Assembly (NCBI GenBank): GCA_029204225.1 | Contig: CM055106.1 | Location: forward strand, 47,877,337 to 47,941,336 | Direction of reading: 5' to 3' | Length of the DNA stretch: 64,000 nt | DNA from: Diphasiastrum complanatum | Lineage: Eukaryota > Streptophyta > Lycopodiopsida > Lycopodiales > Lycopodiaceae | Shown: one piece after another, positions 38,841 through 41,184 of the stretch | Position numbering within the stretch: position 1 is the first letter of the stretch | Layout of the letters: each line of letters opens with the position of its first letter | Program-made: the position numbers and the translations under genes | The notes under the pieces: model-generated | What the model saw: only the letters and a program-made list of their open reading frames with translations | Databases searched by the model: none | Told to the model about the DNA's origin: nothing

Positions 38841-38917
38841 AAAAAATTGCGTGGCATTGCCACGCGTGGCAAAAAAATGCGTGGTAGAGCCACGCGACAC
38901 TTGAAATCTGAAAACTG

Positions 38918-38925
38918 TATATAAA
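38918..38925 (+). promoter_or_regulatory. TATA box of the 38.9-kb gene
   Basis: TATATAAA lies 30-60 bp before the first two in-frame ATGs (38,955 and 38,982). It sits immediately after the palindrome cluster, as expected for an element-internal promoter. Confidence 0.55.
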
Positions 38926-38954
38926 TGCCCTCATTCAATCTTTTCCACGCTACT

Positions 38955-39668
38955 ATGCTATCTCCCGAGAAAAGGCAAAGGATGAAAGCCCTTTGTCTTT
39001 CCGAAAGAAAATCCGATCAACAAGATCGTGGATTCGTTTCGACGGAGATGTCGTCGGAAGAATCCACGAATATTTTCTATGACCTTGATGAGGACGGTTC
39101 CATATTTTTTAACCCTTGAGAGCAACAAGACCAGGGGGACAAAGACAAGTTACTTATCTCACCTTGGATCGGGAGGCAAGGCCAATATGCATGCCCAATT
39201 TGTAAGCAATTCTCTTTTAGCTAATTGCATTTCATATGTTTATTGTTTACCAATAATTTTTTGTTTTTTTTCTAATCATCGATTTGTGTTGATGTAGGTT
39301 GAAAATTATGGGCGTAAGTATACAAATGCCGAGTACAATATTGGATATCGCCAAGGCTATAGTGCCTTGGATGATCATCTTGCGGCACAAGGCGTACATC
39401 CAAGGGTAAATTTTTGTTACATAATTTGTATTTCTCAAATTTTTGATACACAATTTGTATTTCATTTCATTTTTATGACATGTGTTTGGCTAATAATTAT
39501 TAATTTGTTTTGTGAATGTGTATGTAGAGGGCATCCGCTTTCTTTGTGGAAGAAAGTACGGGAGGAAACCAAGGAGAAGAAGGGAATGAAGATGAAGGGG
39601 ACGAAGGCGAAGACGAAGGACAAGATTCGGCTTCGGACAACGATGAGGGAGAAGATAGTGAAGACTAA
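38955..39668 (+). CDS. Three-exon gene for a small protein with acidic C-terminus
   Basis: Exon 1 spans 38,955-39,201, intron 1 39,202-39,297 (GTAAGC...TGTAG), exon 2 39,298-39,405 (36 codons: VENYGRKYTNAEYNIGYRQG, YSALDDHLAAQGVHPR), intron 2 39,406-39,527 (GTAAAT...TGTAG) and exon 3 39,528-39,668. Exon 3 reads RASAFFVEESTGGNQ, then an Asp/Glu/Gly-rich tail ending DNDEGEDSED-stop. Both introns are phase 0. Exon 1 starts MLSPEKRQRMKALCL (or at Met 38,982) and has SSEESTNIFYDLDEDGS. A T6 run near 39,107 then throws the frame by one base: without one T it would read on into SHLGSGGKANMHAQF and join exon 2. So it is near-intact, about 164 residues. I do not recognise the family; the acidic tail suggests a chromatin- or DNA-associated accessory protein, which is inference only. 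Confidence 0.6.
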
Positions 39669-40266
39669 GAAGCCTACTATTACTTCTTAGATTTGATGTA
39701 TTTTTAGTATTTGCCACAGTAGAAAAAAAGGTATTAGTATCAATGCTCTTTAGAAGCGAATATGTACACTTTTTTGAATTATGAATATAAACTTTTGTAT
39801 TTGATCATCTCTATCTCATTATGTATGGAATGATTGTTTTTTGTATATGTTTTTCTATTTCAGCTTGTATAAATTTGTTGTAAATATATACAAACAATAA
39901 AAAAACAAACAAAAACATCAATTTAAGACGATAAAAACATACCTCATCTATTGTTTGAATGATCTTTAATTCATTCTAAGATGCATCTCTTTTTTTCTCT
40001 ATAAAAGCAAACAATGAAAACCAAATCATTGTTAGATTACAAAACAAATAATTATTGTTAGATTACAAATCAATCAACAAAATGATAATTGTTAGAATAC
40101 AAATCAAAGAATCATTGTTAATTAAAAAATCATTACTCATTGTTACATTAATCTCACCATGTTGAAGATACTATAAAAATGCACTTTATGACTCAAATGT
40201 AATCTACCAAAATTTAGAATGCATAATATACCTCATGAATAAACAATGAAAAACTAGCAAACAAAA

Positions 40267-40406
40267 CTCTCTCTCTCTCTCTCTCTCTCTCTCTCTCTCT
40301 CTCTCTCTCTCTCTCTCTCTCTCTCTCTCTCTCTCTCTCTCTCTCTCTCTCTCTCTCTCTCTCTCTCTCTCTCTCTCTCTCTCTCTCTCTCTCTCTCTCT
40401 CTCTCT
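40267..40406. repeat. (CT)70 microsatellite
   Basis: Uninterrupted CT run, about 140 bp. Confidence 0.98.
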
Positions 40407-40585
40407 AAAGCTTTTCTTTAAAATTTAGAATGTCTAACATACTTTATGCATTTGCTTGGATTGTCTCCTTTCCTTCAAAATTGCATAGGTTTTTTCTACA
40501 AAAGCCAACAATGAACAATCATTCACTAACCAACCAATAAACAAATCAATAAACAATGAAAAACTAACAAACAAAACTATCTCAC

Positions 40586-40690
40586 CTCTCTCTCTCTCTC
40601 TCTCTCTCTCTCTCTCTCTCTCTCTCTCTCTCTCTCTCTCTCTCTCTCTCTCTCTCTCTCTCTCTCTCTCTCTCTCTCTCTCTCTCTCTC
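40586..40690. repeat. (CT)52 microsatellite
   Basis: CT run of about 105 bp; second copy within the tandem duplication. Confidence 0.98.
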
Positions 40691-40974
40691 CAAAGCTTTT
40701 CTTTCAAAAGCTTCTCTTCACGAAATCTATTTGCAAATGCAGTCGAGGCTTCCACCTTCTCCATTTTGCGGGTTTTTTTTTTTTGTTAAAATATTTTTGC
40801 ATGGCACTGCCACGCGTGACAGTGCCACGCCCTAAAAACTTTTCCAGAAAACTTGCCACGACGTGGCAAGTTTTTGCTTGTTGGAAAAATTTGCCACGCG
40901 TGGAAAAATTTCAAGCATTTTGCCATGCATGGCACTACCAGGCGTGGCAGTGCCATGCGGATTTAAAATTTTGT

Positions 40975-41184
40975 AAAAGCATTAAGGATGTGGAACTTGT
41001 TCAATTTGTTCTTAATGGCATGTTGGGTGATCATGCTAACTTGGTTCAGAGTTTTGCTATTCAAAAGACATTGCCAAGAATGGAAGATTTGCAAGAGATT
41101 TTGTTGAATGAGGAGTTTAGGCTTCTATAAAGAGGAGGTGCATCTTCTACATCTCAAGTTGGAGAGGATGAAGCAATGTTCACA
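40975..41184 (+). pseudogene. copia gag fragment
   Basis: It reads KSIKDVELVQFVLNGMLGDH, LVQSFAIQKTLPRMEDLQEI and NEEFRLL-stop-RGGASST, ending EAMFT. It closely parallels residues 142-205 of the copia gag at 11,689, ending at the same MFT where sequence starting TTAGGGG is joined. It is bounded on the left by the palindrome-cluster element. Confidence 0.8.

Follow-up and report, generated by a model that had tools for sequence, protein, structure and literature searches.

A probable accessory-gene half of a dead CACTA-superfamily transposon in Diphasiastrum complanatum

Transposons of the CACTA superfamily are described as elements with termini that start with CACTA, 3-bp target duplications and a TNPA protein that binds divergent subterminal repeats, with the Pfam family PF03004 serving as the mark of TnpA (PMC2613891, PMC8195511, PMC4158355). 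The CACTA termini are reported to be highly conserved (PMC4158355). We compare these systems here with a gene flanked by palindromes in Diphasiastrum complanatum, which lies in a stretch of 64,000 nucleotides that was analysed as a whole (the window, C15:47877337-47941336) and was compared with other loci (designated L) in a searched genome of 1.74 Gb in 5176 contigs.

Maize En/Spm, with its proteins TNPA and TNPD, resembles the element described here in having a tnp2-type transposase, an accessory gene, subterminal repeats and a short target duplication (PMC2613891, PMC4158355). Unlike maize En/Spm, the element described here carries CACAACTACA rather than CACTA at its ends, uses a lattice of GCCAC palindromes as its motif, and has an accessory gene with its own internal, motif-bearing promoter region and without a match to PF03004; relative to tnp2, this gene is on the opposite strand in the window and on the same strand at locus L047. 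Likewise, the soybean Tgmt* element is described as having palindrome-capable subterminal repeats, asymmetric ends, a 3-bp duplication and a presumed DNA-binding protein unlike maize TNPA (PMC2613891). By contrast with our element, Tgmt* has CACTA ends, a different motif and one large, alternatively spliced gene. VANDAL elements are Mutator-like and not tnp2 elements, and an anti-silencing role is hypothetical for the element described here. They are similar, however, in that an element-encoded anti-silencing protein, VANC, acts on non-coding repeats within its own family of elements (PMC10398659). Finally, the animal TRC element SmTRC1 shares with the element described here a Transposase_21 gene combined with non-CACTA ends, and differs in its CCC ends and 2-bp duplications (PMC1636069).

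It is likely, in our judgement, that the feature under study belongs to a dead CACTA-superfamily (tnp2) transposon, of which it forms the accessory-gene half and which extends over approximately positions 23177-40970 of the window. The initial annotation had tentatively assigned the gene to a DNA element, and 39 copies besides the window were scored; its description of this element as undescribed goes too far, as the PF02992 transposase and the 3-bp target duplication place the element in a known superfamily. New here are the atypical ends, the rigid geometry of the motif, the presence of the motif lattice at the accessory promoter as well as at the ends, and a carried SET-domain open reading frame (ORF).

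Element ends and superfamily placement

The family is high-copy and its ends are sharp, reading CACAACTACA...TGTAGTTGTG. A complete element, L014/L015 (C1:37102736-37109295, 6560 bp), joins an L009-type end to an accessory-side end, has CACAACTACA and TGTAGTTGTG as its terminal inverted repeats, and is flanked on both sides by AAT, i.e., by a 3-bp target duplication (one of the one element with both ends); the inverted repeats are absent from the window copy, which lacks both ends. Of 33 oriented copies, 16 carry the accessory-side end TGTAGTTGTG (its tip has one mismatch in L035), and the remaining 17 have no such end within the DNA examined; the DNA beyond this end is unrelated among copies, with 13 distinct flanks by reading. 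The tnp2-side end (CACAACTACACATATGNGC...) matches 319 genomic sites (control, 0), its L014 variant matches two, and tnp2 genes adjoin this end in L009, L010 and L013. Dozens of tnp2-side ends, mostly in one orientation, lie within 1.6 Mb at C1:48.6-50.2 Mb (the region of L017-L020), which resembles a block of duplicated elements.

With regard to the features by which CACTA (CMC/EnSpm) elements are recognized, PF02992 (Transposase_21) is found both in the window and in L009, where the tnp2 gene of an element with a CACAACTACA-type end matches at E=3e-52, and repeated subterminal motifs occur at both ends, in addition to the inverted repeats and the 3-bp duplication of L014/L015. Canonical plant CACTA elements have termini that start with CACTA; because the termini here start with CACAACTACA, we file the family as a variant of the superfamily and not as a canonical CACTA element. 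Identity as a Helitron, hAT or Mutator element was dropped because the 3-bp duplication and tnp2 argue against it. A search of open-licence PMC papers for the strings CACAACTACA and CCACGCGTGG returned no plant-transposon title among the matches listed.

The accessory gene and its motif lattice

The three exons, the GT-AG introns at 39201/39298 and 39405/39528 and the acidic C-terminus, all of which had been read from the window in the initial annotation, are real, and the introns are kept in other copies; a TATA-like box follows the left palindrome cluster (Table 1). The gene had also been called near-intact, which it is not: its start region is gone, the true frame contains a TGA, and two pieces of exon 1, of 72 bp and 248 bp, are missing, the latter loss breaking the frame. 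Compared to L015, L005 and L007, approximately 575-660 bp are missing at 38951/38952, in a stretch that contains the start codon in L007.

A DNA search with positions 38845-39840 of the window yielded the 40 scored sequences (39 copies plus the window; 762 is a number of first-look candidates and not a copy number), with 94-95% identity over ~312-995 of the query. In a gene alignment of 25 copies and the window, from which copies without both gene markers were excluded, the majority reading gives three exons and 308 codons including the stop. Intron 1 retains GT-AG in 25/25 aligned copies, and intron 2 retains GT-AG in 20 and AG in all 25. An uninterrupted spliced frame is found in one of the 25 copies (L037, 299 codons), and exon 1 is open in L038. 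Since the within-family changes common to at least two copies have a ratio of 0.99, which indicates no selection, most copies read as dead. A diverged family, represented by L008 (3087 to ~4120), has by eye the same three-exon layout and acidic tail; its protein is 58% identical over exons 1 and 2 (134/233 to L038 and 137/234 to L037), with dN/dS values of 0.20 and 0.16 at a dS of ~2, near saturation, and pN/pS values of 0.43 and 0.40 (bootstrap limits 0.35-0.53 and 0.32-0.49, respectively). The L008 copy is broken too, with its own stop and frame break. The L008 layout and the between-family dN/dS together suggest that the accessory gene was probably real and under selection in source elements. 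The protein gave no convincing Pfam match at E values up to 10 and, at the same limit, no match to PF03004 (TNPA/Transposase_24), and a membership in PF03004 proposed by eye is therefore unsupported; an AlphaFold2 model of the exon 1 product had a pLDDT of 42. The suggestion that this is a TNPA-like accessory gene is thus borne out with regard to its position, which is that of TNPA in a tnp2-type element, and not with regard to protein family.

The palindrome GCCACGCGTGGC occurs in the window exactly at 38859 and with one mismatch at 40809 and 40893; three matches compare with 0.01 expected, and none of 100 shuffles had at least three. Genome-wide, 1225 exact sites were found in 1.74 Gb, and none for the reversed control. 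Spacings between half-sites were counted in 235,577 bp (L001-L004 and L018-L020 excluded, overlaps trimmed), and the counts are not independent, as copies of one family make up many of the loci. For GCCAC-Nk-GTGGC there are 68 cases of k=2, 14 of k=3 and no more than one of each other k up to 15; for GTGGC-Nk-GCCAC there are 68 of k=3, two of k=15 and none of any other k. This alternation of 2- and 3-base spacings suggests that an oligomeric protein may bind the half-sites. The N2 palindromes have a GC centre in 54 of 68 cases, which results in two CpG per palindrome, and half-site variants that read GCCACGTG also occur.

GCCAC arrays are located at both element ends and directly 5' of the TATA box of the accessory gene. 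A TATA region was detected in nine of 33 sequences, the window counted among them, and all nine carry at least one exact half-site no more than 90 bp upstream of it; the diverged L008 family has the same array layout at its accessory promoter. The palindromes had been proposed to be subterminal transposase-binding sites and, consistent with an end motif of the element, 14 of 16 loci on C1 that were picked from a palindrome listing have a terminus-like 10-mer no more than 470 bp from every exact palindrome (some loci overlap or are near-identical, and the set of 10-mers was chosen after the ends were known). The whole 160 kb of these 16 loci, a length in which two overlaps are counted twice, contains only 16 matches to such 10-mers, and L006 and L016 contain none. 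The palindromes had furthermore been thought to bracket the gene as end sites. The right cluster is indeed subterminal; the left cluster is promoter-proximal and was rejected as a terminus, because none of the tested terminus-like 10-mers has an exact match in the window and the same cluster is internal to the 6560-bp element L014/L015. Palindromes do occur genome-wide without the gene, a finding named in advance as contrary to the proposal; the proposal is not refuted by it, as these sites also mark tnp2-side ends.

Taken as an end-binding factor, the accessory protein would bind as an oligomer to the GCCAC half-sites of the two ends, would bring the ends together for the tnp2 transposase and, bound at its own promoter, may act as its own regulator, like TNPA in maize En/Spm. 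None of these steps is open to the copy in the window, which has lost both ends and in which the genes found are broken. Alternatively, the protein may mainly be an anti-silencing factor with a VANC-like role that strips silent marks via the CpG-containing GCCACGCGTGGC arrays rather than assembling ends. The position of the arrays in non-coding DNA, including the promoter of the accessory gene itself, and the predominance of GC-centred palindromes, each with two CpG, are in line with such a role, as is a paper which reports the binding of VANC proteins to non-coding repeats in the elements that encode them and which has a maize TnpA demethylation paper among its references (PMC10398659). The arrays are concentrated at the termini, however, as transposition sites would be, and we regard a mainly anti-silencing function as possible but somewhat doubtful; the two roles are not mutually exclusive.

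Architecture of the window element

Table 1. Positions of features of the element in the window
Feature	Positions	Strand	Basis or remark
tnp2 3' part (PF02992 piece 23882-24160)	23177-24288	-	PF02992 E=3.6e-10
Copia insertion in tnp2	24289-28888	-	LTRs 24289-24540 and 28637-28888, 95.6%; 5-bp duplication AGTAG
tnp2 5' part	28889-30154	-	92% DNA identity to L009 3784-2535; PF02992 E=7.5e-27
SET-domain ORF, C-terminal part, just 5' of tnp2	30269-30460	-	87.5% identity to L047 SET ORF
Second Copia, splits SET ORF	30456-36289	+	LTRs 30456-31355 and 35391-36289, 92.3%; borders approximate
SET-domain ORF, N-terminal part	36286-36735	-	tblastn relatives L040, L027, L019, L047, L018; short in L007
Copia gag/LTR-like fragment carried in element	37248-38045	-	Pol_BBD; shared with L009 and L014
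Promoter-proximal palindrome cluster, inside element	38849-38895		same layout in L008
TATA-like box TATATAAAT, accessory gene	38918-38926	+	
Accessory gene, exon 1 remnant	38955-39201	+	start region gone, TGA 39117-39119, frame lost
Accessory gene, exon 2	39298-39405	+	copy alignment
Accessory gene, exon 3, acidic C-terminus and stop codon	39528-39668	+	copy alignment
Subterminal palindrome cluster, accessory-gene-side end; terminus itself absent	40796-40971		L007 comparison, end at L007 3801

The region from approximately 23177 to 40970 most likely represents a single element, ~17.8 kb long when its insertions are counted, in which tnp2 and the SET ORF lie on the minus strand and the accessory gene on the plus strand, and from which both ends are missing (Table 1). 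This reading from sequence rests on the 92% identity of tnp2 to L009, on the parts of the SET ORF and on the shared gag/LTR-like fragment. The tnp2 3' part has 92% DNA identity to L009 4976-3958 and 3843-3779, and the tnp2-side end is missing as the homology to L009 stops at 23177; L009 itself has no Copia at the matching tnp2 site and is uninterrupted there (3779-3784). On the right, homology to L007 stops ~215 bp before the L007 terminus. The two SET parts are separated by ~32 residues that were not found. In three further loci, L027, L040 and L047, SET has the same orientation as the accessory gene and lies downstream of it, as is also the case for tnp2 in L047, and this gene order counts against a simple divergent layout; one junction is common to L027 and L040, which lie 90 kb from each other on C19, and the junction of L047 is different.

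A number of other features were observed in the window. Long pure CT dinucleotide arrays occupy 40267-40406, 40586-40690, 15291-15470, 41537-41683 and 55827-55968; there are two 3' of the accessory gene, and the homology of L047 to L007 ends near such an array. Inverted and direct repeats at 41713-42300, with arms of 97, 80 and 84 nt that are 82-88% complementary, are perhaps a foldback element. An array of ~30-bp tandem repeats (36792-37182) separates the SET piece from the gag fragment, and a Copia gag-integrase ORF of 972 codons occupies 11665-14583.

The differing relative order in L027, L040 and L047, the truncation of both halves and the Copia and other DNA that separates them would also be compatible with two different elements, one with tnp2 and SET and, next to it, another with the accessory gene. 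We consider this unlikely, as the 6560-bp L014/L015 joins an L009-type end and an accessory-side end, and as the gag/LTR-like fragment between the halves is common to L009 and the window (gag and LTR-like part), with the LTR-like part only kept in L014, and is located ~880 bp (L009) or ~870 bp (L014) from the same shared upstream marker. Quite improbable is a third possibility, namely that the palindromes are captured host transcription-factor sites (G-box- or CGCG-box-like) and that the accessory protein does something else: GCCAC...GTGGC appears to resemble G-box half-sites and some half-sites read GCCACGTG, but a binder encoded by the element better explains the fixed spacings of 2 and 3 bases, the arrays at the two ends and the accessory promoter, and the lack of half-sites, with one mismatch allowed, in positions 303-4210 of L009, which include the 5' side of tnp2.

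The SET-domain ORF and the meaning of the element

The SET ORF lies just 5' of tnp2, both in the window and in L047. SET ORFs were located at L047:2583-3399, L040:247-1119 (a 290-codon open frame, stop to stop), L027:2706-3308, L018:473-986 and L019:7201-8107, with matches to PF00856 (SET) in L047 (E=1.4e-8), L018 (5.4e-8) and L019 (8e-5); the N-terminal part from the window alone had no Pfam match. Between subfamilies (window and L047 versus L040, L027, L019 and L018), dN/dS is 0.17-0.25 in eight of eight pairs at a pS of ~0.4, and within subfamilies it is 0.6-1.9 (seven pairs); for comparison, tnp2 shows 0.17-0.74 in 13 pairs with pS >0.19 and 1.22 in one close pair. These values would fit selection on the ORF within the transposon as well as two separate captures of host genes that had diverged, and we favour the former because SET lies beside tnp2 in both subfamilies (window and L047; L019). 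SET proteins usually have the catalytic stretch NHxC. The SET ORF reads, by eye, NSSI at this position, its AlphaFold2 model had a pLDDT of 32, and a PDB sequence search with the SET piece found nothing credible. Among the matches listed in a search of open-licence PMC papers for CACTA together with SET, none fitted by title and the start of the abstract.

In the most far-reaching reading, which we offer tentatively and hold to be rather improbable, the CACAACTACA-end CACTA lineage may be a three-gene element with tnp2, a lattice-binding accessory protein that controls its own promoter as well as the two ends, and a SET protein under purifying selection; such a transposon would bring its own chromatin modifier with it. 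As the accessory-gene half of a dead CACTA-superfamily transposon, an apparent orphan gene becomes one piece of a definable transposon system, and the 2/3-base spacing rule, together with the use of the motif at the gene's own promoter, provides a handle on the choice of DNA sites by a CACTA-type accessory protein. A functional SET ORF would amount to a chromatin modifier borne by a transposon and would bear on how plant transposons escape from silencing.
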